A stretch of 64,000 nucleotides of DNA from the NCBI RefSeq assembly GCF_040250305.1, contig NZ_CP158190.1, forward strand, positions 3,256,001-3,320,000, in the 5' to 3' direction. The position numbers and the translations under genes were made by a program. This DNA is from Peribacillus frigoritolerans (GTDB taxonomy: Bacteria; Bacillota; Bacilli; Bacillales; DSM-1321). This document shows, one piece after another, positions 28,822-61,397 of the stretch. The notes beneath the pieces are model-generated. The model did no database searches. It was not told the DNA's origin and saw nothing but the letters and a program-made list of their open reading frames with translations. How positions within the stretch are numbered: position 1 is the first letter of the stretch; every line of letters starts with the position of its first letter.

Positions 28822-28885
28822 TAAACTGCCTCTTTAGGTGCATAAAGAAAAAGCTGCCTTAAAGACAGCTCCGATCTTCAGCTAA
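28822..28885 (-). repeat. Modular terminator repeat, copy 1 (right arm interrupted)
   Basis: Left arm (AACTGCCTCTTTAGGTGCATAA, degenerate), central hairpin AGCTGCCTTAAAGACAGCT, then CTTCAGCTAA. The right arm breaks here; CGCACCCGT reappears at 30371, suggesting the IS110 element split it. Confidence 0.7.
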
Positions 28886-28965
28886 ACCAGCTAATAGGAT
28901 GTCAATATCTTTCTCTAAAATTTTCATTTCCATTATGATATACTATTTTTGGCCATGCCAAATAA

Positions 28966-28996
28966 CCCTCCAAAACCCTTTTGGAGGATTTTTCTC
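28966..28996 (+). terminator. Hairpin with T-tract at IS110 3' side
   Basis: CCTCCAAAA pairs with TTTTGGAGG, followed by ATTTTT. It may shield the element or end a plus-strand transcript. Confidence 0.6.
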
Positions 28997-29015
28997 TGTT
29001 TCATAAAACCGTTAA

Positions 29016-30218
29016 TCAGGATAAATCTAGGAATGCTTCTTTTCTCTTTAATAAAGCGTAAACCCAATGAAGAAGTTTATTCATACAGGCAACGATCGCC
29101 ACTTTGGCTGGCTTTCCTTCCGATTTTTTCTTATCAAAGAAAGCTTTAAGCTTTTTGTTCCTTGAACTCCTTATGCCGCATAGTACAGCAAGATACAGAG
29201 AATGACGTAGTCTGCTCGAACCTCTTTTTGTCATACGATTAATGGTTGCCGTAAACTTACCCGATGAGTGAACACTTGGATCTACTCCAGCGAAGGCAAC
29301 CAGTTTTTTCGGGTAATTAAACCGATCGATTTCACCAATTTCAGAGATAATCGTGGCTGCGATTTTTTCTCCGATACCGGGAATCGATTGGATGATCTTA
29401 TATTCTTCCAGTTCATTTGCCAGGGCCACTATACGATCTTCCAAATCAGAAAGGTGTCCCTGGTATTGAAAAAGCAACTCAATATACATACGAAGATTGA
29501 TTACGTGACTTTCATACACGCTTTTTTGAAATGGATTTCGAGATGCGGAATCCATTATTTTTTTTGCTTTTTCCCTTGCCCATTCACCCGATCGGCTTGA
29601 ACAGAACTCTATAACACTCTCTGCTAGTCTACTTTCTCCGGCTGTTAATACCGCCTCTGAAGTGGGATATTCCTTTAACATCAATAAAGAAACCTTCGAA
29701 TATAGATCCCCAAAAACCTTCCGGTATTCAGGAAACACTTGATCTAAAATGGTGTGAAACTGAAGTTTAGCTTCCACATACATATTCGTTACGATTTCCT
29801 GTTGTCTGGAAAAATTCCGAAGGTCTAATAGCTGAATTCCTCTAATTTTATGAGGTTCTAAATCCTCTTTGTAATACAGCACACACAACTGGTACGCATC
29901 GATAGCGTCTGTTTTTACCTTCCGTAAACTGGACTTCTTTGCCTGATAAGAAATAATCGGATTTAGTAAGATATATAGAATCCCTTGATCCTCCAGGTAT
30001 TGAATAACGGGAGAATGGTAATGCCCTGTAGATTCTAAAATGACCATAGGCATCTGCCCTGTCACCTCTTCAATTTCTTTTAGAAATTCTAAAAAATGAT
30101 CTAACTCCTCTTTGATATGCTTCATTGAAAAGCTCTTCCCATACGGTTTAGATTGATCTAAGAATGCCTGAACTTGGCTCTCTCCTTTTGCCACATCCAG
30201 ACCAACAACTGGATTCAT
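29016..30218 (-). CDS. IS110-family transposase/recombinase
   Basis: 400 residues. The N-terminal RuvC-like DEDD domain starts MNPVVGLDVAKGESQVQAFL (Asp8 catalytic) with ILESTGHYH and TDAIDAYQL. The C-terminal Tnp_20 domain has IPGIGEKIAATIISEIG and the conserved serine region GVDPSVHSSGKF. IS110 enzymes act with a bridge RNA from the element's non-coding end. A coiled middle region links the domains. Full length, so probably active. Confidence 0.93.
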   Translation of the reverse strand: MNPVVGLDVAKGESQVQAFLDQSKPYGKSFSMKHIKEELDHFLEFLKEIEEVTGQMPMVILESTGHYHSPVIQYLEDQGILYILLNPIISYQAKKSSLRKVKTDAIDAYQLCVLYYKEDLEPHKIRGIQLLDLRNFSRQQEIVTNMYVEAKLQFHTILDQVFPEYRKVFGDLYSKVSLLMLKEYPTSEAVLTAGESRLAESVIEFCSSRSGEWAREKAKKIMDSASRNPFQKSVYESHVINLRMYIELLFQYQGHLSDLEDRIVALANELEEYKIIQSIPGIGEKIAATIISEIGEIDRFNYPKKLVAFAGVDPSVHSSGKFTATINRMTKRGSSRLRHSLYLAVLCGIRSSRNKKLKAFFDKKKSEGKPAKVAIVACMNKLLHWVYALLKRKEAFLDLS

Positions 30219-30370
30219 TATCTTTACCTCCTCTACTTATTAACCAGTACCCCTAGTCCTCCATGTAGTGTCATAGCTTCGCTTGTTATTCGAGATCTGC
30301 GTCCCAACCAGCCTCAAACATGTTTCTACAAGTAGGGGGCGGACAGTTTAGTTCACGGGATCAAGTCCCA
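30219..30370 (-). ncRNA. Candidate IS110 bridge-RNA region
   Basis: Non-coding sequence upstream of the transposase. In IS110-group elements this end encodes the bridge RNA whose loops base-pair with donor and target DNA. The region contains no frame and several short complementary blocks. Assignment rests on family knowledge and position; loops were not folded. Confidence 0.45.
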
Positions 30371-30417
30371 CGCACCCGTACGTCCTACCCTGGCTACTGA
30401 TATAATAGATTCTATTA

Positions 30418-30478
30418 AAAAAAGGTCAACCAGTAATTTTTACTGGTCGACCTTTTAATACGAACGCACCCGTTAGTT
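30418..30478 (-). repeat. Terminator plus right arm of the modular repeat (variant hairpin)
   Basis: A different strong terminator (AAAGGTCAACCAGTAA with TTACTGGTCGACCTTTT, A-run on the left) is followed by the standard right arm AACGCACCCGTTAGTT (30463-30478). The left arm is absent. Confidence 0.7.
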
Positions 30479-30504
30479 CATTAAGAACCTTGATACTATG
30501 TTAA

Positions 30505-30771
30505 TTAGTAAATACTTCCGTATTTGGAACGTTCATCGAGTATTGCATAAGCTATAAACAGTACGTAATAACTTATATTAAACAATGCAAGCATAAAACG
30601 TTGCTTATTGTTACTTGCACCAAACGCAATTATAAACCCTGCAAAAGGCCCGATTTGCCCAATCATCCAAATAGGATTAGCCGAGCCGCCTATTTCTAAC
30701 GTAGCTTCATTCAATGCGGTTAAAAAGGCAAAAGGCACCCACGCTAATGATAATTTAGCCCATTTATTCAA
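30505..30771 (-). CDS. Small multi-helix membrane protein (88 aa)
   Basis: Starts MNKWAKLSLAWVPFAFLTAL with three hydrophobic segments. I chose TTG at 30771 with GGGGTGA 5 nt upstream; a start at 30819 would overlap a TATAAT-like -10 box. Family not recognised. The stop lies 27 nt from a repeat right arm. Confidence 0.6.
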   Translation of the reverse strand: MNKWAKLSLAWVPFAFLTALNEATLEIGGSANPIWMIGQIGPFAGFIIAFGASNNKQRFMLALFNISYYVLFIAYAILDERSKYGSIY

Positions 30772-30840
30772 AATGTCACCCCTATTCCATCTCCAAAAGT
30801 CCCCAATAAAATTGACCATAATTATAACGTATCTCTCTTG

Positions 30841-30921
30841 AAGTATCCTGCCCCGATAGTTTCATAAAGAAAAAGCTACCATAAAGACAGCTCTAATCTT
30901 CAGCTAACGCATCTGTTGCTT
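30841..30921 (-). repeat. Modular terminator repeat, copy 2
   Basis: Left arm ATCCTGCCCCGATAGTT, central hairpin (AGCTACCATAAAGACAGCT, one arm mutated) and right arm AGCTAACGCATCTGTTG, ending 8 nt from the DUF402 stop. Confidence 0.85.
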
Positions 30922-30928
30922 AATAAAG

Positions 30929-31471
30929 TTATTTTAATTCATTGACTAAGAATTCCTTATGAAAATGGGATAAATCAAGCAATTCAAAGCTTCGATTATT
31001 TATTAACTTAGTAAGGATGTTTACTTCATCCCAAGCTGAATCATAAAGAGATTTATCAATAATTCCATTAAGAAAAGCCTCTTCAAGCTCATCAGCATCT
31101 TTTTGAATTACTTCTCCAGAAGGTAACAAAATAATATCTAAATACAAATCATCCAAATAGGGAATATCATTATCTACTCCATTGCCTAGGCAAACATCAA
31201 TATACCATTGCACTATATTCCCATTATTATCAAACATTGTTGTTACTGAATGCTTTTTTTTTACGGGAAATTGTTGAAGCCACATGTAACCATTATCAAC
31301 AATACATATATTCTTATCCTCATACCAAACGGATAATGGTTTAGCAACTTTAATTGTATGTAATAAAGTTATATAACCCTTAAATTCTTTAGTATCAAGA
31401 AACGCTTGTGCATATTTTCTATCCAAGACACGTTTCCATTCTGAACGGTTTCCATATTTTCTCTTTAGCAT
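30929..31471 (-). CDS. DUF402 family protein
   Basis: About 180 residues. WYEDKNICIVDNGYMWLQQF, VTTMFDNNGNIVQWYIDV and PYLDDLYLDIILLPSGEV are the DUF402 core, whose Asp/Glu residues bind divalent metal in nucleoside-di/triphosphate phosphatases of this fold. Whether this one is such an enzyme is inference. The second ATG (31471) is better spaced from GGGGG than the one at 31477. Confidence 0.8.
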   Translation of the reverse strand: MLKRKYGNRSEWKRVLDRKYAQAFLDTKEFKGYITLLHTIKVAKPLSVWYEDKNICIVDNGYMWLQQFPVKKKHSVTTMFDNNGNIVQWYIDVCLGNGVDNDIPYLDDLYLDIILLPSGEVIQKDADELEEAFLNGIIDKSLYDSAWDEVNILTKLINNRSFELLDLSHFHKEFLVNELK

Positions 31472-31556
31472 CTTCATCCCCCAAACCGAAAATTATTTAC
31501 CTAATTATAACATTCGAATTTAAGTGAATTGCTAAAAAATGGGTGATTTCTTCTTC

Positions 31557-31631
31557 AACTAAACTGCCCCTTTAGTTCAAAAGCCACCGAATGGTAGCCC
31601 CTGATCTCAACTACCGAACCTTGTAGTTGTA
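31557..31631 (-). repeat. Modular repeat, copy 3 (variant centre and right arm)
   Basis: Left arm AACTAAACTGCCCCTTTAG is kept. The centre is a different hairpin (GCCACC with GGTAGC) and the right arm is CAACTACCGAACCTTGTAG, still an inverted pair, ending 7 nt from the next stop. Confidence 0.7.
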
Positions 31632-31638
31632 GAATTTT

Positions 31639-32193
31639 CTATTTGGAATTTATGTAATAAACCAGATTATCAGTCCATTCACCAAATTCAAAAATAAATC
31701 CTTTTCTTATGCATTCAAACTCCATTCCTACATTCTCTGCTAACTTATAAGAAGGTGTGTTATCAACGTTTATATGAGCCTCAATTCGGTGGAAATTCAA
31801 GTCTTTAAAGGCGATATTAAGGGCTTCTTTTACTGCCTCTTTACAATAACCATTTCTCCAATATTGATTATGGATATTGTAACCTATCCTACCCCATTGA
31901 AAGTCACTTCTCTCTAAGGTGGAAAAATCTATCGTTCCAAGATGTGTACCGTCTTCTTTCCTAAAGACACCAAAAACATATGCTATATCATCCACTGCTA
32001 ATTCTTGATGTTTTCCCACTAAGTTGGTAAACCATTCCTCTGAACATTCACTCATATCAATCTTCCCTTGATCATACCTGTGTTGAGATGGAAGTCTATT
32101 TTTAAATTCGCTAAGCCAATTTTTAAAATCATTTTCCTTTAATGGTCTTATTACTAATCTTTCTGTTTCTGAAACGCTGTCAAATTTGTTCAA
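31639..32193 (-). CDS. GNAT acetyltransferase (RimJ/RimL type)
   Basis: 184 residues. ERLVIRPLKENDF, YNIHNQYWRNGYCKEAVKEA and FHRIEAHINVDNTPSYKLAE with VGMEFECIRKGF are the acetyl-CoA fold motifs of RimL-like enzymes that acetylate protein N-termini or small amines. The TTG at 32193 has better RBS spacing (AAAGG) than the TTG at 32202. Confidence 0.82.
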   Translation of the reverse strand: MNKFDSVSETERLVIRPLKENDFKNWLSEFKNRLPSQHRYDQGKIDMSECSEEWFTNLVGKHQELAVDDIAYVFGVFRKEDGTHLGTIDFSTLERSDFQWGRIGYNIHNQYWRNGYCKEAVKEALNIAFKDLNFHRIEAHINVDNTPSYKLAENVGMEFECIRKGFIFEFGEWTDNLVYYINSK

Positions 32194-32317
32194 ATAAAAC
32201 AACCTTTCTATTTAGGTCTTTTCTTAACTCTTAAAATCTCTCCATTTCAAAATAAATCCAATTATTAACTATTCGCCTTAACAGTATTAATCCCTTTTTG
32301 TAACGTATTCAATCTTC

Positions 32318-32344
32318 AACTAACCTGCCCCGATAGTTCCATAA
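32318..32344 (-). repeat. Modular repeat, copy 4: left arm only
   Basis: AACTAACCTGCCCCGATAG plus TTCCATAA, then interrupted by GGGGTACCGCC. The usual central hairpin does not follow. Confidence 0.8.
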
Positions 32345-32384
32345 GGGGTACCGCCAACATTTCGGAAATTTTGTACGCTAACTG

Positions 32385-36347: not shown

Positions 36348-36410
36348 TTTACTACCTCTTCCTAATTGGTTTTTACATAGGTAGTTTTACCAATTTGATG
36401 TTTCTTATTA

Positions 36411-36493
36411 AACTAATCTGCCCCGTTAGTGCCATAAGAAAAAGAGCTGCCTTAAAGACAGCTCTGATCTAAAGCTAACGCACCCGTTAGTTT
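36411..36493 (-). repeat. Modular terminator repeat, copy 5
   Basis: Left arm AACTAATCTGCCCCGTTAG, hairpin AGAGCTGCCTTAAAGACAGC, right arm CTAACGCACCCGTTAG, whose stem is extended by flanking CTAAA/TTTAAG. It ends 13 nt from the stop of the next gene. Confidence 0.9.
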
Positions 36494-36505: not shown

Positions 36506-37117
36506 TCACATTCCAAAAGATTCACTTCTATCATTTCTCTTCACAATCACTAAATAAATAAGAATGCATACAATCATTAGACAAAAGGTAACATTTTGTG
36601 CAATACCAATAATGTCACCCCAGCTACTTGTACCGTTTACAAACAACTGCAAGATTAATCCTACAAGTAAACTCAGTAATGCAAATGGTGTTTTTTTTAC
36701 TAAGTATCCAACAACCCCACCCAGGATACCACCAATGGTTGACGCCCCATACCAGTTCACATATGTCATCGCCAGTTCTTTAAATGATATCGTTACTGTT
36801 ACTGGTATATCCGTATAAAAATGTCCAATCACGAAATAAAACGTAATTGCAGTGATTGTATAAATGGCCCCAAGTAACGCAGCCTTCTTAATGTTCCTCG
36901 CAAATATATAGCCAACAAGCATTGCTACAATAAACCACATTGGTAAAGAATTAATCATTACCGCTAAATACGCAATGACGAATTCAAGAACTGTTACACC
37001 GTCAACTAAAAATGATAAATTATCAGAAATAACTGAAAAAATTGCAACAATTAAACCAATGATAAATGTAAAGGTAACAAACTTCCAATGCACTATATAT
37101 TCTTGGTTCTCCTTCAA
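36506..37117 (-). CDS. Multi-pass membrane protein (203 aa)
   Basis: Six or so hydrophobic helices; starts MKENQEYIVHWKFVTFTFII and ends with a basic tail. TTG start with GGGAGGTG upstream. Family not securely recognised (DUF6518-like is possible). It has the best promoter seen in the accessory region plus a palindromic operator, so it is regulated. Confidence 0.7.
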   Translation of the reverse strand: MKENQEYIVHWKFVTFTFIIGLIVAIFSVISDNLSFLVDGVTVLEFVIAYLAVMINSLPMWFIVAMLVGYIFARNIKKAALLGAIYTITAITFYFVIGHFYTDIPVTVTISFKELAMTYVNWYGASTIGGILGGVVGYLVKKTPFALLSLLVGLILQLFVNGTSSWGDIIGIAQNVTFCLMIVCILIYLVIVKRNDRSESFGM

Positions 37118-37288: not shown

Positions 37289-37370
37289 CCACTAACCTGC
37301 CCCTTTAGTTCCATAAGAAAAAGCTGCCTTAAAGACAGCTCCGATCTTCAGCTAAAGCACTCGTTAGTTG
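37289..37370 (-). repeat. Modular terminator repeat, copy 6
   Basis: Left arm ACTAACCTGCCCCTTTAG, hairpin AGCTGCCTTAAAGACAGCT, right arm AGCTAAAGCACTCGTTAGTT. Confidence 0.9.
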
Positions 37371-37400: not shown

Positions 37401-37872
37401 TCATGTCCAAGATGTTCCTGATGAATCACATTGTTCAAATCCAAGTTTCTTATAAAGTTGTACAGCCTGAGTGTTTTTAGGGTCAACGCTAAAAGATAGT
37501 GATGTGTAACCATCTCTAGAAGCTGTTTCAAATAACTTTTCCATAAGCAGGTTACCTATTCCCTTACCTCTTACTTTATTAATTACAGCTATACCCAGTT
37601 CAGGGAGTCTTATCATCAACATATCCATAACCTTTTTGATTTTCTGCAAATAGGCGATACCATGCAGCACCAACAGGAAAATTATCCTCAAAAGCAATTA
37701 TTGCTCTATCACCTTTTCGTCCCCACCCCTCACTATATTTTTTTATATGTGGTAAATTTAACAGTTCTTCTTTAGATGGCTTATTTTCAGGAATATGAAT
37801 AGCTTCATACATCATATCCGTTAAAAAATCTAAATCATGCTCACTTTGTTCCAAACTTTTTACTTGTATCAA
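37401..37872 (-). pseudogene. GNAT acetyltransferase with frameshift
   Basis: The N-terminal frame (MIQVKSLEQSEHDLDFLTDM, ending DDKTP) and the C-terminal frame (PELGIAVINKVRGKGIGNLL) join into one GNAT domain if a C is removed from the CCC run near 37605. The acetyl-CoA loop (RGKGIGNLL) and final KLGFEQCDS are intact. A sequencing error in the short C run is possible. Confidence 0.8.
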
Positions 37873-37928
37873 AATTAATCACCCCATTTGTTACTAATTC
37901 GACATAGAAATTTTATTACCTGTTCTTC

Positions 37929-38010
37929 AACTAACCTGCCCCCCTTTAGTTCCATAAGAAAAAGAGCCTTATAGACAGCTCTGATCTTCAGCTGACGCAC
38001 CCGTTAGTTT
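37929..38010 (-). repeat. Modular terminator repeat, copy 7
   Basis: Left arm AACTAACCTGCCCCCCTTTA, central hairpin partly lost (AGCCTTATAGACAGCT), right arm CTGACGCACCCGTTAG. Confidence 0.85.
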
Positions 38011-39292: not shown

Positions 39293-39466
39293 ATTGGAAG
39301 GAAAGTTTTATCCTTTCGCGAATTCATTATACATGCCGAAATTACGAAATTCGCAAAAAAATCGCGGTAGAGCATTGGAAGGAAAGTTTTATCCTTTCGC
39401 GAATTCATTATACATGCCGAAATTACGAAATTCGCAAAAAAATCGCGGTAGAGCATTGGAAAGAGC
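39293..39466. repeat. 81-bp tandem duplication
   Basis: An 81-bp unit beginning ATTGGAAGGAAAGTTTTATC starts at 39293, repeats exactly from 39374 and begins a third time at 39455. 81 = 27 codons, so frames stay open through it on both strands (66 and 63 aa), but no RBS supports either. The unit holds an inverted pair (GCGAATT/AATTCGC). Confidence 0.9.
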
Positions 39467-40110: not shown

Positions 40111-40437
40111 GAGAGGACAAGACGGGTTGAAAAAAGCAGCAGCGATTGGTTACAGACTGGATTTTGTCTAAAAATGAAAAGCAAATAATAATCTCAAACA
40201 AGAAAAAATCAAGGCCTCTTCGTTAAGCTAACGAAGAACGAGAGCTCAATACATCATACGAATGACAAATAAGGATTGGTGTTTATTCCGCAAAAGGGCG
40301 CAATTGTTGAATAATTGAATCCCAATTTCTCATTTATATCACTGAGAGATTGGGATTTTTAATGCTGGAATATCCTTAACGTTGTAAATCCGCGTTTTGC
40401 TGGTGGTAACCCTAAATGTTTTTGAACCCCTTTATAC
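40111..40437. other. Non-coding stretch with a terminator
   Basis: No gene. AATCCCAATTTCTC pairs with GAGAGATTGGGATT plus TTT (40317-40362), an intrinsic terminator without an obvious gene in front, so probably the end of a lost gene. Confidence 0.5.
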
Positions 40438-40517
40438 AACTATCCTGCCCCTTTAGTTCCATAAGAAAAAGCTGCCTTAAAGACAGCTCCGATCTTCAGC
40501 TAACGTACCCGTTCGTT
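40438..40517 (-). repeat. Modular terminator repeat, copy 8
   Basis: AACTATCCTGCCCCTTTAG, hairpin AGCTGCCTTAAAGACAGCT, right arm AGCTAACGTACCCGTTCGTT. Confidence 0.9.
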
Positions 40518-40581: not shown

Positions 40582-42033
40582 TTAATCATCATCCTCAGTA
40601 TAAGTATGTTTGCTATTAATTAGTGTCTGTAAATCTCCCCTATATATTGTATCTTTCAATTCCTGTATCCTAAACGGAATCAAAGGCGAAAGATAGGGAA
40701 CACCTAAAGATTTAAGGCTTACCATATAAATTATTTGAATTGTTGCAGCGATGATTAATCCGTTAAATCCAAAAAAATAAGCAATAATCAAAAAAAGAGG
40801 TCTTAATGTATTTTCAGCAGCAAGCAGTCCTCTGTTAGCGAGTAGAAAACTAGAAATAGTTGTTATACCTACTATTATGAGACTAAGTGGATGAATTAGT
40901 TTTGCAGTAACAGCTGTTTCGCCTATTACGATTGTTCCGATTAAGGAAAGCAAAATCACTGAAGTTTTCGGAATACGATATGAAGCATCTAATAATATTC
41001 TTATGATAAATAAAAGAATAGCAATTTCCCAAAAGGTTGGTAATAACTCACTTTTAGATATAAGTGTCTTTGAAATTTTGTTAGTTAAATCTTCTTTATG
41101 AAAATTTGCTATCGCAATATAAATACCAGGTAAGTATACAGCTAAGAAAAAGCAAATCATTCTTATTATTCGATTTGAAAACCGACCCATTTTTACGTGA
41201 TATTCATCTGGTGCCTGTAATAAATCCATAAAAAGTGTGGGTGCAATGATAGCACTAGGGAAACCATCTACTATTATTGCTACTCTTCCTTCATATAATG
41301 AGGATACAACTCCATCAATTCGTCCTGAAGGTCTTGCTAAATTGAAAATTGTTCTTGGTTTTCCTTCCAATACATCTTCCACCACTTTTGAATTTAGTAC
41401 ATACTTTATTTTTAGACTTTTTAGCCTCTTTCGTACTTCTTTTAAAATTCCTTTATCAACAATGCCTTCTATAAATAATATTGAAACTGCTGTTTTTGAG
41501 ATTGTCCCAAATTCCATTGCTTCTACACAGAGATCGGGAGTTTTTATTGTACTTCTTAACAAATTAATATTTGTTTTCATTTGTTCTGTTAGCCCAATAA
41601 CTGGACCCTTTTGTGACCGTTCTCCTAAAGATTCTTCAAGGCTTCTTTCCTTCCAATTGGCTGATGGTATGATAATTCCTTTTCTATACCCATTAATCAA
41701 TATAATGGTATTTCCTTGTACGATAGCTTCTATTAAGTCTTTGTACTGAGTCGTGATTTTCACATCTGCTGCTTCAATCATTCTTTCGATAATTTGATCA
41801 ATAAATGATTCATTAAACTTTACAGTCTTGAACGGCTCTAATAATGGTTTGACAACATATTCTTGTATGCGGTCTGTATCAATAATTCCATCCAAATAGA
41901 CAATGTTGACTTCGAAAGAACTTTTAAAGCCCGTTTTTATTTTTCTAACGATAAGGTCAGATGTATGATGAAATGTATTCTTTATATTGTTAATATTTTC
42001 TTCAGAGCATTCCTGCAATTCTTTTTTAATCAT
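40582..42033 (-). CDS. GerA family spore germination protein, orphan
   Basis: A 483-residue GerA/SpoVAF-type A subunit: soluble N-terminal domain (VYLDGIIDTDRIQEYVVKPL), EGRVAIIVDGFPSAIIAPTL, then about five membrane helices. Such subunits join GerB and GerC proteins in germinant receptors of the spore inner membrane. No B or C gene is next to it, so it may work with partners elsewhere. RBS AAGGGTG. Flanked by repeats on both sides. Confidence 0.9.
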   Translation of the reverse strand: MIKKELQECSEENINNIKNTFHHTSDLIVRKIKTGFKSSFEVNIVYLDGIIDTDRIQEYVVKPLLEPFKTVKFNESFIDQIIERMIEAADVKITTQYKDLIEAIVQGNTIILINGYRKGIIIPSANWKERSLEESLGERSQKGPVIGLTEQMKTNINLLRSTIKTPDLCVEAMEFGTISKTAVSILFIEGIVDKGILKEVRKRLKSLKIKYVLNSKVVEDVLEGKPRTIFNLARPSGRIDGVVSSLYEGRVAIIVDGFPSAIIAPTLFMDLLQAPDEYHVKMGRFSNRIIRMICFFLAVYLPGIYIAIANFHKEDLTNKISKTLISKSELLPTFWEIAILLFIIRILLDASYRIPKTSVILLSLIGTIVIGETAVTAKLIHPLSLIIVGITTISSFLLANRGLLAAENTLRPLFLIIAYFFGFNGLIIAATIQIIYMVSLKSLGVPYLSPLIPFRIQELKDTIYRGDLQTLINSKHTYTEDDD

Positions 42034-42099
42034 TCTATTTCACCCTTAAAGTATTATTCACTTTAGTTTGAGGAAATATCGAAAATTTTATCCGTATTC

Positions 42100-42180
42100 A
42101 ACTATCATGACCCGTTAGTCCCATAAAAAAAAGCTGCCTTAAAGACAACCCCGTTCTACAGCTAACGCACCCGTTCGTTC
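42100..42180 (-). repeat. Modular terminator repeat, copy 9
   Basis: AACTATCATGACCCGTTAG, hairpin AGCTGCCTTAAAGAC with second arm mutated, right arm AGCTAACGCACCCGTTCGTT. Confidence 0.88.
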
Positions 42181-42212: not shown

Positions 42213-42491
42213 CTATATCAAAAATACTATGAACCACATAAACGCAATACCAAAATTTAATAACATCTGCCTCTTATTTTCCTTTTTTAAAAATCTTTCA
42301 AATCCATCTATTATTGAACCAATTCCTAATAAAAGATATATATTTTTTATGAAATTAAAATCATTAATTATACATAATATTAAAATTAAGCCCATTGCTA
42401 TTATCATTAAATATCTAATCAGTATAAATGGTTTAGTACTTTCTCTTTTTTCAAAAAACAATCCCATTACATATTTCAACTTATTTGACAC
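42213..42491 (-). CDS. Small membrane protein (92 aa)
   Basis: Starts (GTG) MSNKLKYVMGLFFEKRESTK with GGGGGAAA upstream, then three hydrophobic segments (about 26-42, 46-60, 78-92). Not recognised. It is the only gene between two repeat copies. Confidence 0.65.
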   Translation of the reverse strand: MSNKLKYVMGLFFEKRESTKPFILIRYLMIIAMGLILILCIINDFNFIKNIYLLLGIGSIIDGFERFLKKENKRQMLLNFGIAFMWFIVFLI

Positions 42492-42558
42492 TAAATTTCC
42501 CCCATAAATTACAAACTGAATTTAATAAACTATACCATTAAGCAAACGGGTCGTCTTC

Positions 42559-42636
42559 AATTAAACGGCCCCGTTCGTTCCATAAGAAAAAGCTGCCTTA
42601 AAGACAGCTCCGATCTTCAGCTAACGCACCCGTTAG
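42559..42636 (-). repeat. Modular terminator repeat, copy 10 (IS inserted at its end)
   Basis: ATTAAACGGCCCCGTTCG, hairpin AGCTGCCTTAAAGACAGCT, right arm AGCTAACGCACCCGTTAG, cut by the IS110 element after TAG. The expected continuation TTGAAGAT appears at 44246. Confidence 0.88.
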
Positions 42637-42895
42637 CCATCCATGAAGCGCAAAAATCAGCGCTTCACCACAGAGAATGAAAATGGTTCAGAACGGTCAA
42701 TACTGATTCTACGGCTGGGAGAGGAAGGTCGATGAACTATGGTGCGTTAGAGCCCATCCGTTAGTCTGACTCCAACGACCAAGGTGCACCACTGACTGTC
42801 GCTCCCTTACGGGAAGCACACATGGTAGATTAATCCTATTCTGGTTTTTGCACCAGCCTCCAATTATATTGAGAGCCGTAGAAAGGATGTTTTCA
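42637..42895 (+). ncRNA. Candidate bridge-RNA region of second IS110 element
   Basis: Non-coding, more GC-rich than the surroundings, with several stems (GAAGCGCAAAAATCAGCGCTTC at its start; GGTGCACCACTG; CTCCCTTACGGGAAG). It also carries GCGTTAGAGCCCATCCGTTAG, resembling the right-arm target, as expected if an RNA loop or the donor end matches the insertion site. Not folded. Confidence 0.45.
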
Positions 42896-44119
42896 ATGGA
42901 AGTAGTCATTGAAAGAGCATGTGGTATGGATGTCCATAAGGACAATATTACTGCATGTATTATGACACCAGAAGGAAAGGAGATTCAAACGTTTTCAACA
43001 AAAACTGTTTTTCTAATTCAGTTAGTGGATTGGATTAAACAGAATAACTGTACTCATGTTGCCATGGAGAGTACCAGTGTATATTGGAAACCTATTGTTA
43101 ATTTATTAGAAGCTGAAGAGATTGAGTTTTTAGTTGTGAATGCTCAACATATGAAAGCAGTGCCAGGGCGTAAAACAGATGTTAAAGATGCAGAATGGAT
43201 TGCCAAACTTCTTCGTCATGGACTTCTAAAAGCTAGTTACATTCCAGATCGAAATCAACGGGAACTACGTGAACTAGTTCGGTACCGTAGAAGTATCATT
43301 GAAGAACGTGCTAGACAACATAATCGCATCCAAAAAGTGTTAGAGGGCGCAAATATTAAGCTAGGCTCAGTGGTTTCAGACGTTATGGGTGTTTCGGCTC
43401 GTGACATGCTTAACGCAATTGCCGAAGGTGAAGAAGACCCTGAAAAACTAGCAAACTTTGCTCGACGCACAATGAAAAAGAAGAAAGATGAACTAGAACT
43501 CGCCCTTAAAGGTTATATCAATTCGCATCAACGCCTCATGTTAAAAACCATTTTAAAGCATATTGATTTTTTAACAGAGCAAATCGAGATGCTCGACCAA
43601 GAGGTCGAGGAAAGAGTAAGCTCCTATCAAGAAGATGTGGAACGATTAGACTCTATTCCTGGCATAGCTACAAGAATGGCTGAGCAAATTTTATCTGAAA
43701 TTGGGACTGATATTAAGAAACAGTTTCCAAGTGCAGCTCATATGTGTTCTTGGGCAGGACTAGTTCCTGGGCATAACGAAAGTGCGGGAAAAAGAAAATC
43801 GGCTAAAACAAAAAAAGGAAACAAGTATTTGAGATCAGCATTAACAGAAGCAGCTCATTCTGTAAGAGGATCTAAAAACTATCTCGGAGCACTGTATAGG
43901 CGTACAGCATCACGAAAAGGTAAGAAACGAGCAGGAATAGTAGTCGCTCATGCCATGTTACGTATCTCCTATTATCTCTTAACTCGAAAAGAAATGTATG
44001 TAGACTTAGGCGAAGACTACTTTGATAAGCAGAGACAACAATCAATTTTTCGGCACTCACTAAGAAGACTTGAAAGTTTAGGATACACAGTTACGTTACA
44101 AGAACCTGAAGCATCTTAA
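42896..44119 (+). CDS. IS110-family transposase
   Basis: 407 residues. MEVVIERACGMDVHKDNITA holds the first catalytic Asp; MESTSVYWKPIVN and TDVKDAEWIAKLL the Glu and Asp. Tnp_20 domain: DSIPGIATRMAEQILSEIGT, then WAGLVPGHNESAGKRKS with the conserved Ser. I chose ATG at 42896 (AAAGGATG 6 nt upstream) over an ATG 16 codons earlier. Confidence 0.93.
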   Translation: MEVVIERACGMDVHKDNITACIMTPEGKEIQTFSTKTVFLIQLVDWIKQNNCTHVAMESTSVYWKPIVNLLEAEEIEFLVVNAQHMKAVPGRKTDVKDAEWIAKLLRHGLLKASYIPDRNQRELRELVRYRRSIIEERARQHNRIQKVLEGANIKLGSVVSDVMGVSARDMLNAIAEGEEDPEKLANFARRTMKKKKDELELALKGYINSHQRLMLKTILKHIDFLTEQIEMLDQEVEERVSSYQEDVERLDSIPGIATRMAEQILSEIGTDIKKQFPSAAHMCSWAGLVPGHNESAGKRKSAKTKKGNKYLRSALTEAAHSVRGSKNYLGALYRRTASRKGKKRAGIVVAHAMLRISYYLLTRKEMYVDLGEDYFDKQRQQSIFRHSLRRLESLGYTVTLQEPEAS

Positions 44120-46607: not shown

Positions 46608-46721
46608 CGCTCTCTTTGAATCGAACGATTTTTCTCTTTCCCATTAAAATTCTATATTAATTCATATTTAATCATATCATTTAAAACTTTTCGTTGTCTG
46701 AAGAGATTGAAGTTCATCTTA

Positions 46722-46748
46722 AACTAAACCGCCCCGTTAGTTCCATAA
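46722..46748 (-). repeat. Modular repeat, copy 11, left arm (split)
   Basis: AACTAAACCGCCCCGTTAG plus TTCCATAA; the remaining part of the same copy resumes at about 47779 after an insertion of about 1 kb. Confidence 0.85.
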
Positions 46749-46897
46749 GGGGTCTTACCACATGCCCATCAAGTTAAAATTTCTTTATAACCCAAAACGA
46801 AAAAAGCTATCTTCAGCAGCATTTACAGAAAGAATAGCTTATTTTTTCGTTTTGGGTATAATCCTTTTTCTTAGCTTGATGGCGATAGGCGGTACCC
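46749..46897. mobile_element. MITE-like inverted element (149 bp)
   Basis: Ends GGGGTCTTACC (left) and GGCGGTACCC (right) are related inverted; CATCAAG/CTTGATG follow inside, and the core is a long stem (ACCCAAAACGAAAAAAGC 46790-46807 with GCTTATTTTTTCGTTTTGGG). The only frame, 62 aa, is a by-product of the hairpin. Confidence 0.65.
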
Positions 46898-47767: not shown

Positions 47768-47849
47768 GCGGTACCCCCATTAAAAAAAGCTGCCTTAAAG
47801 ACAGCTCCTATCTTCAGCTAACGCACCCGTTAGTTGAAGATAGGAGCTG
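47768..47849 (-). repeat. Modular repeat, copy 11, right part with extended hairpin
   Basis: GGCGGTACCCC precedes the standard hairpin AGCTGCCTTAAAGACAGCT and right arm. Here the right-arm stem is extended: CAGCTCCTATCTTCA before it pairs with TGAAGATAGGAGCTG after it (47802-47849), about 21 bp with one mismatch. Confidence 0.9.
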
Positions 47850-48167: not shown

Positions 48168-48282
48168 AAGTCTGGAGGTGCCCCATATAATTCTAATTTT
48201 AACTCTAATTAACTATAACATACTAATGATTAAAAGTATTGTTATTCGATGTAGCTATACAGTACGAATACATCACAATTGT

Positions 48283-48310
48283 AACAAACCTGCCCTTTAA
48301 GTGCATTAAG
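48283..48310 (-). repeat. Modular repeat, left arm only (copy 12)
   Basis: AACAAACCTGCCCTTTAAG plus TGCATTAAG; neither hairpin nor right arm follows. It abuts the 3' end of the DUF3953 pseudogene. Confidence 0.65.
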
Positions 48311-48527: not shown

Positions 48528-48627
48528 ATAATCCCCCAATTATTTTTTTCATTAAAACACCCTTTATTTAATTGTAACATAATGGATAATTCAATTTGCC
48601 TCATAATTCGAATAAACTACGCTACTT

Positions 48628-48709
48628 AAACTACCCTTTCCCCTTTAGTTGCATAGCAAAAAGGTTGCTTCAGCAACCTCCCTTATTGAAGTAAAGCACC
48701 CGTTAGTTT
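48628..48709 (-). repeat. Modular repeat, copy 13 (exchanged central terminator)
   Basis: Left arm (ACTACCCTTTCCCCTTTAG) and right arm (AAAGCACCCGTTAGTT) are kept, but the centre is AAGGTTGCTTCAGCAACCT (48661-48679), unrelated to the usual hairpin and still with the A-run on its left. Confidence 0.85.
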
Positions 48710-48801: not shown

Positions 48802-49539
48802 CTAGGAACCGCCTTCAACTATCTTTGCAAAGTCATCAAGAGTAGTTGAATACTTGATATAAATTCGTGGTAAAAGATAAAGTTCGTCTTTAATGCCCTT
48901 CTCAGAAAATAGTTCAGGAGTTGTCGTAAGTCCAAACAAATAATATTTCTTCGTTTCTTCTACGACCTTGCCATTGAAATTTCCGTATGGATACGCAAGA
49001 GCATTTACTGGTTTGCCTGTTATTTTTTGAATTTTATCTTTGGACCCTTTCAGTTCATATTCATAATTTTTTATTTCCGTCAAATCAGGATGTGTAGCAG
49101 TATGAGACTGGATTGAGATTATACCCGAATCAGCCATCATTTTTAAATCCGATTTCGATAATCGGTTTGAACGACCGATAAAGTCAGAAATAACAAAAAT
49201 GGTACCACTTGGTTTAAAACGTTCGTTTTCAAGTTTTTGAAAGATAGCAAATGCATTCAGATTGTTTTTGTATCCGTCATCAAAAGTAATGAAAATGGGT
49301 TTATTTTCTTTATCAATATCTTGCCAACGATCAAAAGTTAATAATGTGTAGCCATGGTCTTTTAAATAAATCATTTGTTTCTGGAAATTATCAGGAGTTA
49401 CATATAGCTCCTTAGAACCCTGCCCAGTAAACTCGTCAATCGAATGATAAATTAAAATAGGTACTTTTCGTTGAGCAAAAACTTGTGATGGAAGAATTAA
49501 GATAAGAAGACATAGGAAAAACATTACAACCTTTTTCAT
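48802..49539 (-). CDS. Secreted polysaccharide deacetylase
   Basis: 245 residues with signal peptide (MKKVVMFFLCLLILILPSQV to FAQ). NodB motifs: FITFDDGYKNN (catalytic Asp and metal Asp), QSHTATHPDL (metal His pair), ALAYPYGNFN and the late LPRIYI. Probably removes N-acetyl groups from cell-wall or exported polysaccharide. RBS GAGGAA. Confidence 0.92.
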   Translation of the reverse strand: MKKVVMFFLCLLILILPSQVFAQRKVPILIYHSIDEFTGQGSKELYVTPDNFQKQMIYLKDHGYTLLTFDRWQDIDKENKPIFITFDDGYKNNLNAFAIFQKLENERFKPSGTIFVISDFIGRSNRLSKSDLKMMADSGIISIQSHTATHPDLTEIKNYEYELKGSKDKIQKITGKPVNALAYPYGNFNGKVVEETKKYYLFGLTTTPELFSEKGIKDELYLLPRIYIKYSTTLDDFAKIVEGGS

Positions 49540-51457: not shown

Positions 51458-51590
51458 TAAATCACCTCGTTCATAACAACAGTTTAAAAACCTATTTTAC
51501 CATAAAAATCCAATAATTAGATTTAAATATCATTTTTCTATTCTCATTGTTCAGTATTTATTGCACAGTTCGAATACAATTTGCGTGTTG

Positions 51591-51669
51591 AACTATCCTG
51601 CCGCTTAAGTTCCATAAGAAAAAGCTGCCTTAAAGACAGCTCCATCTTCAGCTAACGCACCCGTTAGTT
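51591..51669 (-). repeat. Modular terminator repeat, copy 14
   Basis: AACTATCCTGCCGCTTAAG, hairpin AGCTGCCTTAAAGACAGCT, right arm AGCTAACGCACCCGTTAGTT. Confidence 0.92.
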
Positions 51670-51806
51670 CATTAAGATTTATTGTAGAGTTGAAATAAAT
51701 AGTGCAGTAAGGATTAATGCCAAAAGAGAAAAAAATTAATTTTTCTTATCATTTTCAAGTAAATCAATAATTCTATTGTAAATTCGTTTTATCAATAATC
51801 TTATGG

Positions 51807-51875
51807 AACTATCCTGACCCGATAATTCCATATGCAAAAGCAACTCCCTTATTCAAGTAAAGCACCTATTAGTTC
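51807..51875 (-). repeat. Modular repeat, copy 15 (centre eroded)
   Basis: AACTATCCTGACCCGATAA, centre reduced to AAAAGCAACTCCCTT, right arm AAAGCACCTATTAGTT. The 137 bp between copies 14 and 15 hold no complete gene: an emptied unit. Confidence 0.75.
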
Positions 51876-51894: not shown

Positions 51895-52329
51895 TTATTC
51901 ACCCTCATCAATCTCATCTTCAAATTCAGAATTCGATACAATAAATTCTTTTAAGCTAGAAGCTAATTCTTCTAATTCTTCGGTTTCGTGATACCAAATA
52001 TAAATTTTACCATCCATTACCGTATCAACAATCCGAAAACATAATATGTCCCCTGTACCATCTTCACCAATAGATATTAGGTCATCAGCCATTCTTTCAT
52101 CTCTCACATCTTGATTTTGTCTTACAATATCATCCCAGGTTCTCTTTAAGTTTTTGGAGTCTTTAATAGGAAACAGAGTCCATACATCAATCTGAGCATT
52201 GTTAGATAGTTTAAAAAGTTCTTTGAATTGTTTGGGAAATACAACTCTTAATTGTTCTTCTGCTGATTTTATATCTACATCCGTAACACCAGGTTTTCTT
52301 GTGTCAATCAAATCGATTACATCATTCAT
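51895..52329 (-). CDS. SMI1/KNR4 (SUKH) family protein
   Basis: 144 residues. VDIKSAEEQLRVVFPKQFKE, LSNNAQIDVWTLFPIKD, ISIGEDGTGDILCFRI and VYIWYHE-like YIWYHETEELEELASS follow the SUKH order. SUKH proteins are often immunity proteins for contact-dependent or polymorphic toxins; no toxin gene is adjacent, so an orphan immunity gene is likely. Confidence 0.85.
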   Translation of the reverse strand: MNDVIDLIDTRKPGVTDVDIKSAEEQLRVVFPKQFKELFKLSNNAQIDVWTLFPIKDSKNLKRTWDDIVRQNQDVRDERMADDLISIGEDGTGDILCFRIVDTVMDGKIYIWYHETEELEELASSLKEFIVSNSEFEDEIDEGE

Positions 52330-52396
52330 TTAATACGTACCATCCCTTCAAATTCTTTTACATAAAACTTCTTGATTTTTCTTCAAAAACCTTATT

Positions 52397-52440
52397 CAGC
52401 TATCCTGACCCGATATTTCATAAGAAAAAGAGCAGCCAAT
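52397..52440 (-). repeat. Modular repeat, copy 16 (truncated in the hairpin)
   Basis: AGCTATCCTGACCCGATAT, CATAAGAAAAAGAGCAGCC, then unrelated sequence leading to the protease gene. The second hairpin arm and right arm are lost. Confidence 0.75.
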
Positions 52441-54236: not shown

Positions 54237-54295
54237 TTTATCTTAATTACAATTTCTAGTCCAAGTAAAAAAACATTTTCCAATTTGTGTTATGG

Positions 54296-54375
54296 AACTA
54301 TCCTGCCCCGTTAGTTGCATAAGAAAAAGCTGCCTTAAAGACAGCTCCGATCTTCAGCTAACGCACCCGTTAGCT
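54296..54375 (-). repeat. Modular terminator repeat, copy 17
   Basis: AACTATCCTGCCCCGTTAG, hairpin AGCTGCCTTAAAGACAGCT, right arm AGCTAACGCACCCGTTAGCT; closest to the consensus. Confidence 0.95.
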
Positions 54376-54387
54376 AAAAAACTTTCT

Positions 54388-54654
54388 CTAAATAAACGGA
54401 TTCCAATCAGGGTCTATTATATCTTTCCCATTTGGCTTTCTTACAAACCCAATACAGCCTTCTTCGCATGCCCCAAACTTAACGAAGTTTTTTTGTGCTT
54501 GCCTTAATGAAACTTCATTAGCCCCGCCTTCGTAATCAGGGTCTCGAAATTGAACACCATCATCTTCCCAAAAGCATATTTTGCAAATTGCATATGTATC
54601 GGTAGGTTCTTCATCTAATGTTTTATATCCACAGCAAGGACAAGTATATTTCAT
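54388..54654 (-). CDS. CPCC family cysteine-rich protein
   Basis: 88 residues: MKYTCPCCGYKTLDEEPTDT and AICKICFWEDDGVQFRDPDY with GANEVSLRQAQKNF define the CPCC domain, a small zinc-ribbon-like protein often in toxin-immunity and accessory loci. RBS GAGGTG. The textbook single-gene unit: right arm 12 nt behind the stop, left arm about 48 nt before the start. Confidence 0.9.
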   Translation of the reverse strand: MKYTCPCCGYKTLDEEPTDTYAICKICFWEDDGVQFRDPDYEGGANEVSLRQAQKNFVKFGACEEGCIGFVRKPNGKDIIDPDWNPFI

Positions 54655-54701
54655 ACAATCACCTCGATCTTTTTATGAATTTTTACCATGCTTTCTTTTT
54701 C

Positions 54702-54780
54702 CACTATCCTGCCCCGATAGTTCCATAAGAAAAAGGCTGCCTTAAAGACAGCTCCGTTCTTCAGCTAACGAACCCGTTAC
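54702..54780 (-). repeat. Modular terminator repeat, copy 18
   Basis: ACTATCCTGCCCCGATAGTT, hairpin GGCTGCCTTAAAGACAGCT, right arm AGCTAACGAACCCGTTAC. Confidence 0.92.
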
Positions 54781-54803: not shown

Positions 54804-55301
54804 CTACCTCATTGCACTTCCCAACATAACCATGCCAATAAATCCATATACAACTGTAACTCCCAAACCATACAAAACTAAGTTATCTTTTTTAACTAGT
54901 CTGATCAGTTCAAAGAAAGAAATTACAATCCGTATAACCAACAACAGTCCAAATATACATAAAAATGACATCCCGATAGTCATTGGAATCTCTGTCACTA
55001 ACCTCATACCATCTGACTCATCATTTGAGATTACCCCGATCCCCATTCCAATATAAATCCACAAAAATGATCTCAATATCAATGTAAAGAATAAAATGTA
55101 GTAACGCTGAACATTAGGTGCTAAAGAAGAATCCACAGACGTTATCCATTTTATAAAATACTTGATACATAACCTACACGAAATAATAGGATGTAACCAG
55201 GCAAATATAAAATCTGTTTCATCGTCCTTAACATAAGAATTCTTTCCAAATGTCATTTTAATTATATTTGATTCGTTTTTCTTCTTTTTCTTCTTTTTCA
55301 T
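54804..55301 (-). CDS. Multi-pass membrane protein with Lys-rich N-terminus (165 aa)
   Basis: Begins MKKKKKKKNESNIIKMTFGK, followed by a soluble stretch and three or four hydrophobic segments. Not recognised. No strong RBS; the ATG at 55301 is chosen over a TTG at 55310. Confidence 0.6.
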   Translation of the reverse strand: MKKKKKKKNESNIIKMTFGKNSYVKDDETDFIFAWLHPIISCRLCIKYFIKWITSVDSSLAPNVQRYYILFFTLILRSFLWIYIGMGIGVISNDESDGMRLVTEIPMTIGMSFLCIFGLLLVIRIVISFFELIRLVKKDNLVLYGLGVTVVYGFIGMVMLGSAMR

Positions 55302-55439
55302 CTTCAACAACCAATCTAATAGTCATAGTATAATTCGATATTCTTCAATCGAAATTATATCATAAACGAGAATAAAACTTTTCTGTGTTAAAGGATCATA
55401 TATGTATAAACCAACATTAAATCACTTTTTTCCTTATTC

Positions 55440-55511
55440 AACTAACCTGCCCGTTAGTTAATTAAGGATAGTTTTTCACATTCAAAAGGCCACCAAATGA
55501 TGGCCTTTTTT
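55440..55511 (-). repeat. Modular repeat, copy 19 (left arm plus another terminator)
   Basis: AACTAACCTGCCCGTTAGTT, then after 24 nt a different terminator (AAAAGGCCACC with TGGCCTTTTTT). No right arm. Confidence 0.75.
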
Positions 55512-58665: not shown

Positions 58666-58699
58666 TAAATTCCCCCAGTTTACTTATAAAAAAGTTCCG

Positions 58700-58826: not shown

Positions 58827-58978
58827 ATGCAATTTTTTGATTATTGAGCAAACCAATTAAAAATGTTGATTATCTTTAGGGAAGTTAGGTGACCTAAATA
58901 TGTAGAAAAAAGATAGAAGAATACCCAAAAGCCAAGAAGCCACACTAAAAAGGCTTTTATTGAACTGAAAATCCAAGT

Positions 58979-59008
58979 GTGAATCCCGACAAGAGTAGCG
59001 GGATTCAC
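58979..59008. terminator. Strong hairpin downstream of the hydrolase gene
   Basis: GTGAATCCCG pairs with CGGGATTCAC across a 10-nt loop; no U-tract on either strand, so it may be a 3'-end stem rather than a true terminator. Confidence 0.45.
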
Positions 59009-59072
59009 GCAGTGGATTTCACTCAAAGTACCATTAGCATGCAAAGCTACCTACGATCTTCCAACACAAGCC

Positions 59073-60158: not shown

Positions 60159-60292
60159 TTTAAATTACCTCCCTTGTTATTTATTCTAGCGTCCTTTTTT
60201 CATATATCAAATACTCATATCTCATATCAAGATATGCTTTATAAGCATTTCTCAAACGGTTATACTATAACATTATAAAGGAGGAGTGCTAT
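60159..60292. promoter_or_regulatory. Divergent hydrolase/LysR promoter with palindrome
   Basis: CATATCAAGATATG (60223-60236) is a perfect interrupted palindrome centrally placed between the divergent starts, a candidate LysR-type binding site (T-N11-A pattern nearby). Confidence 0.55.
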
Positions 60293-61201
60293 ATGGAATT
60301 TAGAGTTTTGCGATATTTTCTTACGGTTGCAAGAGAAGGAAGCATTACGGGTGCTGCTGATTTTTTGCATGTTACACAGCCAACCTTGTCAAGACAATTA
60401 AAAGACCTTGAACGAGAGTTGGGGAAAAAATTATTTAATCGCAGCAGTCACAGTATCATCCTCACAGATGAAGGAATGCTCCTGCGGAAGAGAGCAGAAG
60501 AAATCATTGATATGGTCGATAAATTAGAGGCAGAATTTAGTTCAATGGAAGAAACAATAACTGGTGATGTTTATATAGGTGGTGGGGAAACAGACGCTAT
60601 GAGAGAGATTGCACGAGTAGTAAAGGATTTACAGATAAGTTATCCAAATATTCGGTATCACCTCCACAGCGGAAACGAAGACGATGTGACTGAACGGCTT
60701 GACAAAGGATTTCTTGACTTTGGTATTTTAATTCAACCAGCTGATTTATCAAAATACAATTATATCGATATCCCAGTCAAGGATGTTTGGGGCGTTGTTA
60801 TGAGGAAAGACAGTCCTCTTGCTTTCAAAGATACAGTTCAAGCAGTGGATTTATTAAATGTTCCGGTAATTTGTTCGCGACAGGTTATGAAACAGACATT
60901 TTCTAAAAATGAATTTGCGGATTGGTTTGGTGAAGATTTTGATAAATTAAATGTTGTGACTACATACAATCTTGCATATAATGCTGCCATTATGGTTGAT
61001 GAGGGCATTGGTTATGCAGTAGTCCTAGATAAAATAGTGAATACGTCTATTCATAGTAACCTTTGTTTTAGACCGCTAGCGCCAAGACTTGAATCTGGCT
61101 TAAATATTGTTTGGAAAAAGCATCATGTTTTTTCCGCTGCTTCTGATATCTTTTTAAAAGAAATTCAGGAGAAATTTTCGAATTCTTTATCAGATATATA
61201 G
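60293..61201 (+). CDS. LysR family transcriptional regulator
   Basis: 302 residues. MEFRVLRYFLTVAREGSITG, then HVTQPTLSRQLKDLERELG is the winged HTH; C-terminal co-inducer domain follows. Likely activates the divergent hydrolase. RBS AAAGGAGGAG. Ends at a terminator at 61258-61300. Confidence 0.92.
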   Translation: MEFRVLRYFLTVAREGSITGAADFLHVTQPTLSRQLKDLERELGKKLFNRSSHSIILTDEGMLLRKRAEEIIDMVDKLEAEFSSMEETITGDVYIGGGETDAMREIARVVKDLQISYPNIRYHLHSGNEDDVTERLDKGFLDFGILIQPADLSKYNYIDIPVKDVWGVVMRKDSPLAFKDTVQAVDLLNVPVICSRQVMKQTFSKNEFADWFGEDFDKLNVVTTYNLAYNAAIMVDEGIGYAVVLDKIVNTSIHSNLCFRPLAPRLESGLNIVWKKHHVFSAASDIFLKEIQEKFSNSLSDI

Positions 61202-61257
61202 TGTTTTCAGAACTAATGGTCCCTTCTTTGCAGCTGGTTTGAAAAAATAAATCACAC

Positions 61258-61300
61258 AAAAAAGGGACAATACCATGAAAAATAGGTACTGTCCCTTTAT
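61258..61300 (+). terminator. Terminator of the LysR gene
   Basis: AAAGGGACAATACC (61261-61274) pairs with GGTACTGTCCCTTT (61286-61299) with one mismatch. Confidence 0.85.
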
Positions 61301-61317
61301 TATTAATAGGCTTATAA

Positions 61318-61397
61318 AACTAAACTGCCCCTTTAGTTCCATAAGAAAAAGCTGCCTTAAAGACAGCTCCAATCTTCAGCTAACGCACCCGTTATTT
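61318..61397 (-). repeat. Modular terminator repeat, copy 20
   Basis: AACTAAACTGCCCCTTTAG, hairpin AGCTGCCTTAAAGACAGCT, right arm AGCTAACGCACCCGTTATTT. Last copy in the window. Confidence 0.92.

Follow-up and report, generated by a model that had tools for sequence, protein, structure and literature searches.

Terminator-bearing repeats as probable joints of an integron-like cassette array in Peribacillus frigoritolerans

We analyzed a stretch of 64,000 nucleotides (nt) from the chromosome of Peribacillus frigoritolerans (contig NZ_CP158190.1, positions 3,256,001 to 3,320,000), referred to here in its whole length as the window, in which a repeat of ~84 nt lies between genes of unrelated accessory functions (acetyltransferases, TetR, GerA, SUKH, CPCC, a deacetylase and others, some without a Pfam match; Table 1). 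A first-pass annotation had noted about 20 copies in one orientation. An iterated nucleotide hidden Markov model (HMM; E<=1e-3), run on fetched stretches of the chromosome that include the window and 20 kb on each side of it, detects 19 window copies, or 18 when rebuilt, all with their gene sense on the minus strand, and 169 matches across the fetched stretches. The reported absence of the repeat from the first 25 kb of core genes is borne out, as the HMM finds no copy in window positions 1-28817, nor in the 20 kb on either side of the window. Furthermore, a search of the window for the left arm, the right arm and the central hairpin with up to 3 mismatches gives 13, 13 and 12 plus-strand matches, against dinucleotide-shuffle means of 0.00-0.01, in agreement with the earlier view that such density and polarity are not due to chance; nine minus-strand hairpin matches reflect the palindrome of the hairpin itself.

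Read in gene sense, the repeat consists of an arm TTNNTNAACTAAC, the spacer GGGTGC, an arm GTTAGCTNAANAT, a terminator hairpin with a T-run, an arm TTATGNAACTAAM, the spacer GGGGCAG and an arm KWTAGTTNAANAAG. A single motif makes up all four arms, which stand as two inverted pairs; the repeat is thus composed of two recombinase-type core sites, AACTAAC-GGGTGC-GTTAG (left) and AACTAAC-GGGGCAG-GTTAG (right), flanking an intrinsic terminator. Terminator-like centres are found in gene sense in 378 of 458 distinct copies, compared with 10 antisense and 16 after dinucleotide shuffling, and in 13 of the 15 centres in the window. The proposal that the repeat works as the 3' end of its gene thus captures the terminator, which would nevertheless be only one part of a recombination joint. 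Of the 22 places originally listed, 19 are within a few bases of HMM matches, and the other three fall below threshold, being a left core with another hairpin (30418), one degenerate core (48283) and a lone core site (55440).

A typed consensus of the repeat folds well in both senses (z -6.3 sense, -5.7 antisense). The aligned repeats yield no consensus base pairs, and our repeat model R1, built from the 19 natural copies and one typed consensus-like row, is therefore a sequence-only model. No Rfam family scores above its gathering score in the window, and arm covariation as in attC is not clearly present, either within a copy or with the previous copy (largest z 2.5). In copies found by the model in other genera, arms and spacers are kept with some change (GGGGGC, GCGGCAG), and the terminator sequence is widely different. 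Linkage between alignment columns (455 distinct of 464 copies) is lowest, and breaks off most sharply, in the left spacer region (GGGTGC^G). We read the linkage pattern as suggesting exchange at both spacers, of which the left one would part a gene from its terminator; some of the pattern could also come from gene conversion between repeats.

Across the 5.6-Mb chromosome (one contig), a hairpin search with <=2 mismatches reveals about eight clusters, namely the window and those at 807-940 kb (the main array), 1.43, 1.89, 2.71, 3.14-3.16, 4.59 and 5.26 Mb, the largest with ~100 copies in 150 kb; most matches fall in the main array and the window. Confinement to accessory DNA, first noted in the window, therefore applies genome-wide, with copies clustered and not equally dense behind core genes. 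Among 729 repeats from 12 congeneric genomes, the fixed polarity also extends to 32 of 33 repeat-bearing stretches; the exception lies at 3.136-3.166 Mb, and an earlier model gave one weak match in contrary orientation at 1.439 Mb. The 658 intervals between repeats have a median of 982 bp and usually hold one gene. Their longest open reading frame (ORF) is in sense in 508 and antisense in 109 (14 and 3 in the window), while 41 have no ORF of 60 amino acids (aa), so that the repeats do not occur equally in both orientations relative to genes. The sense stop lies within 100 nt of a repeat in 292 of the 508 intervals and in nine of the 14 in the window, and the spacing of 0-100 nt between stop and right arm in the first-pass annotation is roughly right.

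The intervals behave as units that are shared between genomes. Among 639 cassettes (84 families) there are 142 homologous pairs at >=80% identity and coverage, and in 64 of these both neighbours differ. Upstream of shared cassettes, homology exceeds background starting at the right core (GGGGCAG). At one block end between G018 and G019, the two sequences agree throughout the shared cassette and all of its 3' repeat as far as the end of GGGGCAG, and part at the base that follows. When cassettes are >=97% identical, their downstream centres agree with a median of 0.87 (n=27); the median is 0.73 (n=19) upstream and 0.71 (n=1500) between randomly chosen pairs. At the level of sequence, we consider the anatomy, the polarity, the terminator and the sharing of cassettes with 5' breakpoints at the right core as established.

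A candidate enzyme is found in G712, of the same order, and in G318, of another order of the class, whose arrays contain a tyrosine recombinase of 279-289 aa. The two proteins are 79% identical, each is about 30% identical to the XerC/XerD-like pair of the source genome, and in both cases the gene runs antisense to its array and has a lone right core on its upstream side. Scanning recombinase loci with a matrix trained on Peribacillus, within 600 nt upstream or just downstream of the gene, detects a lone core at 16 of 49 loci, eight of them upstream and antisense and eight, all Peribacillus, just behind the gene. In the eight Peribacillus loci, three of which have an interrupted or partial recombinase gene, the sequence is nearly the same from the 3' end of the gene across a terminator to the GGGGCAG of the core (the attI-like site), and is followed by eight different first cassettes. 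When these junctions are aligned with a relic in the source genome as ninth row, pairwise identity averages 0.86 across the 60 nt that lead up to the junction. Behind the junction it is 0.53 for the first two bases, 0.91 for the five arm bases that are conserved, and 0.35 from offset 8 to offset 60. The first cassette in G004 (L328) is 92% identical (424 nt) to window DNA holding gene 54388-54654, which sits behind the ordinary repeat 54700-54779, and that in G007 (L321) is a 91% relative of a cassette in the main array. These two cases indicate that attI-like and repeat sites serve as interchangeable acceptors. Of the other six first cassettes, one matches only itself, one has a match starting 11 nt in and four have no match. 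A tree places 40 recombinases of this kind in a single clade, apart from five others encoded by the source genome, with a support of only 0.74.

The source genome itself carries the relic, an exact Peribacillus attI-like site at chromosome 916200-916222 inside the main array. The last 37 recombinase codons precede this site, the first ~17 codons (94% in DNA) are found ~0.9 kb upstream, and a Spo0M-family gene on the opposite strand lies between the two ends, in place of the middle of the gene. No intact relative is found in the source genome among its 14 PF00589 matches or at E<=1e-45. With the middle of the gene replaced and the attI-like site kept, the arrays would now be either immobile or moved in trans; judging from these remains, the main array still holds, in broken form, a platform from which it could have been built. 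A different protein near 3.17 Mb, a divergent tyrosine recombinase of 545 aa, was weighed as a possible driver but not retained, having only one linked case, other genomes not being searched for it by name. Around it, at 3.158-3.172 Mb (L022, L126), repeats occur in both orientations, and with two neighbouring ORFs it possibly forms a recombinase trio.

R1 matches 35 of 36 genomes of the genus, 42 of 43 of the family, 136 of 397 of the order (60 of 135 genera) and 36 of 398 of the class (28 of 146 genera). Recombinase relatives are present in 82 order and 27 class genomes at E<=1e-60, and in 22 of the 43 family genomes at E<=1e-45. Genomes with both, recombinase only, repeat only and neither number 44, 38, 92 and 223 in the order sample (odds ratio 2.8, P=7e-5) and 13, 14, 23 and 348 in the class sample (odds ratio 14, P=2.5e-8, with the genomes shared by the repeat and recombinase matches tallied by hand), P values that overstate independence because species are related and some genomes are common to both samples. 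Among 72,556 plasmid records, 21 contain the repeat (E<=1e-3), at up to 32 places in one, and seven contain the recombinase (E<=1e-50). Sequence comparison establishes a recombinase with a lone core at a constant place in Peribacillus, a junction that is conserved and then divergent at GGGGCAG, the relic and the plasmid copies. Two small plasmids, NZ_CP128117.1 (11.4 kb) and NZ_CP146249.1 (6.0 kb), have a single repeat and are possible cassette carriers, and a contig labelled Veillonella sp. R32 (L170) has one exact repeat pattern, perhaps through contamination.

Together, these observations make it very probable that the window is part of an integron-like cassette array in which a dedicated Xer-like tyrosine recombinase exchanges DNA at right cores. 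The unit would be a gene cassette ending in a compound site composed of the left core (arm-GGGTGC-arm), the intrinsic terminator and the right core (arm-GGGGCAG-arm). The recombinase, encoded beside a lone, attI-like right core, would exchange DNA at right cores directly after GGGGCAG, so that cassettes could be cut out, be inserted behind attI or behind a different cassette in one orientation only, and be transferred from genome to genome. Presumably, the left core is exchanged too, swapping terminators between cassettes. Sequence comparison strongly supports the cassettes and the junctions; from it we infer the action of the recombinase on these sites, the formation of circles and the strand and topology of the reaction, as well as promoters carried by the cassettes, use of the left core and any mobility in trans. 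The cassette-array system itself is real and widespread, and a Xer-like recombinase, whose catalysis we infer, most likely drives it.

Several observations weigh against this picture. At the right spacer, linkage falls only in a broad, shallow dip. The remaining G018/G019 block ends are not clean, several being away from any repeat. A simple integron model predicts full conservation of the downstream centre, which is only partly conserved, and for cassettes 93-97% identical the downstream (0.85, n=25) and upstream (0.83, n=27) centres do not differ. Cassette leaders show no promoter-like enrichment over their own shuffles, only over mid-cassette DNA. With the Peribacillus-trained matrix, 33 of the 49 recombinase loci have no lone core, lone right cores also occur inside arrays at places not next to a recombinase (window 55432; several in G318), and an informative array relative exists for only two of the eight first cassettes. 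Finally, 38 of the 82 recombinase-bearing order genomes lack a repeat match, and 92 of the 136 repeat-bearing ones lack a recombinase match.

Some of these points would fit RecA-type homologous recombination between similar repeats, shuffling genes without a dedicated recombinase: the repeats measure ~84 nt and resemble one another, cassettes keep their centres only in part, and most repeat-bearing genomes of the order, as well as the source genome, have no recombinase at the threshold used. We nonetheless consider this improbable. In eight genomes, the change at the attI-like junction falls at a single place, in a site that has neither left half nor centre, the one clean G018/G019 junction keeps the 3' repeat intact to GGGGCAG, and recombinase and repeat co-occur. 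Slightly less probable still is a dispersed terminator-bearing element, such as a miniature inverted-repeat transposable element (MITE) or one resembling repetitive extragenic palindromes (REP), that inserts behind genes and leaves the genes between its copies incidental. The strong one-way terminator in the centre, the palindromic and intergenic nature of the copies and the existence of right- or left-half copies are what such an element would show, but the shared unit is the gene with its flanks, with homology running from the right core in new contexts; the lone core has a fixed place by one recombinase family in Peribacillus; and the copies form long one-way arrays without scatter through the chromosome.

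A cassette array run by a Xer-like recombinase would make the repeats joints between interchangeable gene cassettes, in arrays that look captured and shuffled by a dedicated enzyme. There is about an even chance that it represents an integron of a second kind, one that arose independently out of a Xer-type recombinase and is widespread in Bacilli, which would act on double-stranded core sites instead of a folded attC and whose two-spacer sites would trade terminators as well as genes, so that each cassette becomes an insulated transcription unit. Integrons are the classic machinery for storing and reshuffling genes. If a parallel system with a recombinase of its own is indeed common in soil Bacilli, it would be an overlooked cause behind much of their accessory genome, would make the borders of cassettes predictable, and would raise the question of whether an integron lifestyle arose repeatedly in evolution. 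The repeat would also offer a natural cassette joint with a built-in terminator.

The features of the window are collected in Table 1. Insertion sequences (IS) recur at the repeats. In the fetched stretches of the genome, an IS110-family element lies between AACTA and CTAAC of a repeat arm in five of five copies, three at left cores and two at right cores (window 42848-44119 and four more, in the main array and at 2.71 Mb). One IS110-family gene occurs twice in the window, at 26298-27032 and at 29073-29852, and the former copy has an ORF of only 141 aa. A GGGGTACCGCC-type sequence adjoins truncated repeats on the terminator side at window 32346 and 47765, and such sequences are perhaps the ends of another insertion that favours repeats. 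Window 39293-39454 is a perfect 81-bp tandem duplication.

Table 1. Repeats, core sites and associated genes in the window (window coordinates)
Feature	Position	Strand	Score or domains
Repeat: terminator and right core, left arm replaced; adjoins IS110-family gene	28818..28897	-	55.7 bits
IS110-family transposase, 400 aa, between repeat parts 28818 and 30421	29016..30218	-	PF01548, PF02371
Partial repeat: left core, then a different terminator hairpin	30421..30485	-	
Full repeat; closes cassette 30929-31477 (DUF402)	30838..30918	-	
Repeat with diverged centre; closes cassette 31639-32202 (GNAT acetyltransferase)	31554..31628	-	
Right core only; GGGGTACCGCC sequence adjoins on terminator side	32315..32346	-	
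Full repeat; closes cassette 36506-37117	36408..36492	-	
Full repeat; closes cassette 37401-37697 (GNAT)	37290..37369	-	
Full repeat	37926..38009	-	
Full repeat; closes cassette 40582-42033 (GerA spore germination)	40436..40517	-	
Full repeat; closes cassette 42213-42491	42097..42179	-	
Full repeat; IS110-family element inserted at CTAAC of left core	42556..42636	-	
IS110-family transposase, 423 aa, of the element inserted in repeat 42556..42636	42848..44119	+	PF01548, PF02371
Right core only	46719..46750	-	
Left core and terminator; GGCGGTACCCC sequence adjoins in place of right core	47777..47835	-	
Degenerate core site	48280..48310	-	
Full repeat, other terminator type; closes cassette 48802-49539 (polysaccharide deacetylase)	48627..48708	-	
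Full repeat	51588..51669	-	
Repeat with short centre; closes cassette 51895-52329 (SUKH)	51804..51875	-	
Right core and part of centre	52395..52438	-	iterated HMM
Full repeat; closes cassette 54388-54654	54294..54375	-	
Cassette gene, Cys-rich CPCC, 88 aa; 92% relative is first cassette at attI-like site in G004	54388..54654	-	
Full repeat; GGGGCAG is 5' boundary of CPCC cassette; closes cassette 54804-55310	54700..54779	-	
Lone core site, 14-bp arms around GGGCAG, no terminator half	55432..55467	-	
Full repeat, farthest upstream of all in gene sense; follows 61498-62109 (TetR) by ~100 nt	61317..61397	-	

In the open-access literature searched by titles and the starts of abstracts, preprints excluded, we found no description of this system. 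Genomic islands of the GInt type, which carry several genes and an integrase, are likewise driven by tyrosine recombinases in diverse bacteria, but the opening of the abstract describing them does not mention cassette arrays or compound sites (PMC5385486). Insertion sequences that target attC offer a parallel to the IS110-family insertions in repeat arms; the IS1111-attC elements differ in that here both the IS (IS110-family) and the target motif (AACTA/CTAAC) are others. Also close are the simple tyrosine recombinases XerC, XerD and XerA with their dif-type sites, which share the protein architecture and motifs and a core of two inverted arms around a 6-7 nt spacer. With NF040815 (cut-off 220), P0001 reaches 224.2 bits and P0002 209.3 bits, and the XerC and XerD models stay under their cut-offs. 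The recombinase here differs in its identity of only about 30% to the XerC/XerD-like pair of its own genome and in its linkage to arrays and a lone core, and the arm sequence is, we presume, unlike dif.

The layout of the system is that of an integron. An attI-like site lies beside the recombinase gene with the array starting there (eight Peribacillus loci downstream, eight upstream and antisense, plus G318), the array is one-way with cassettes ending in a compound site (32 of 33 stretches; 508 versus 109 ORFs), and one G018/G019 junction, two first cassettes and the junction alignment point to a fixed exchange point common to attI and attC. The R' box of integrons is GTTRRRY; the consensus here, GTTAGTT with its first two positions variable, does not conform. 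Integrons drive promoterless cassettes from a platform promoter, Pc; in Peribacillus a terminator stands between the recombinase gene and the attI-like site. The spacing from the box I arginine to the box II histidine is 90-91 in 38 of 40 recombinases (taken from 45 offered; the motif pattern failed in the other two), shorter than the 96 of the XerC of the source genome, so that there is no inserted segment at this place. In IntI4 we take the arginine to be at position 135, and our analysis puts the histidine at 267. The IntI-specific insertion in the catalytic domain, missing here, is described as essential for integron function, though not fully conserved in the subgroup studied (PMC8138268, in part). 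A canonical integron (IntI, attI, attC) missed by surveys is the least probable explanation of all: the recombinase gene, lone site and one-way array, the compound site of four inverted boxes with a variable centre and the integrase-less arrays resembling clusters of attC sites lacking integrases (CALIN; PMC9024848, PMC8618304, both in part) would fit it, but the recombinases reach only 95.9 and 103.5 bits with TIGR02249 (cut-off 265), no better than the best match among the Xer-like proteins of the source genome, and 68 and 73 bits with PRK15417 (cut-off 435), an IntI search of the source genome gives nothing over cut-off, no consensus base pairing and no clear arm covariation are found, and a terminator occupies most sites and, in Peribacillus, the gap between recombinase and attI-like site.

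Sedentary integrons and CALIN are the nearest known counterparts. They share with the arrays described here a one-way array of mostly single-gene cassettes, each closed by a compound site of four boxes, a lone site beside a tyrosine recombinase, a fixed exchange point, arrays without integrase and copies on plasmids. They differ in that the recombinase here is not IntI, no conserved box pairing is found, an intrinsic terminator is present in most sites, both spacers seem open to exchange and the hosts are Bacilli. Firmicutes are listed among the phyla with integrons (PMC8618304, in part). A survey of 22,301 chromosomes and 21,520 plasmids with IntegronFinder 2.0 calls integrons extremely rare in this phylum and reports one complete integron and a few CALIN there (PMC9024848, in part). 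Furthermore, attC arrays of sedentary integrons favour one replication strand (PMC8946536, in part), a bias that both large arrays of this genome share if the origin is at the contig start, from which their gene sense points away, some small clusters being opposite. Together, these comparisons indicate a system that, as read from its sequences, works like an integron but fails membership of the IntI family.

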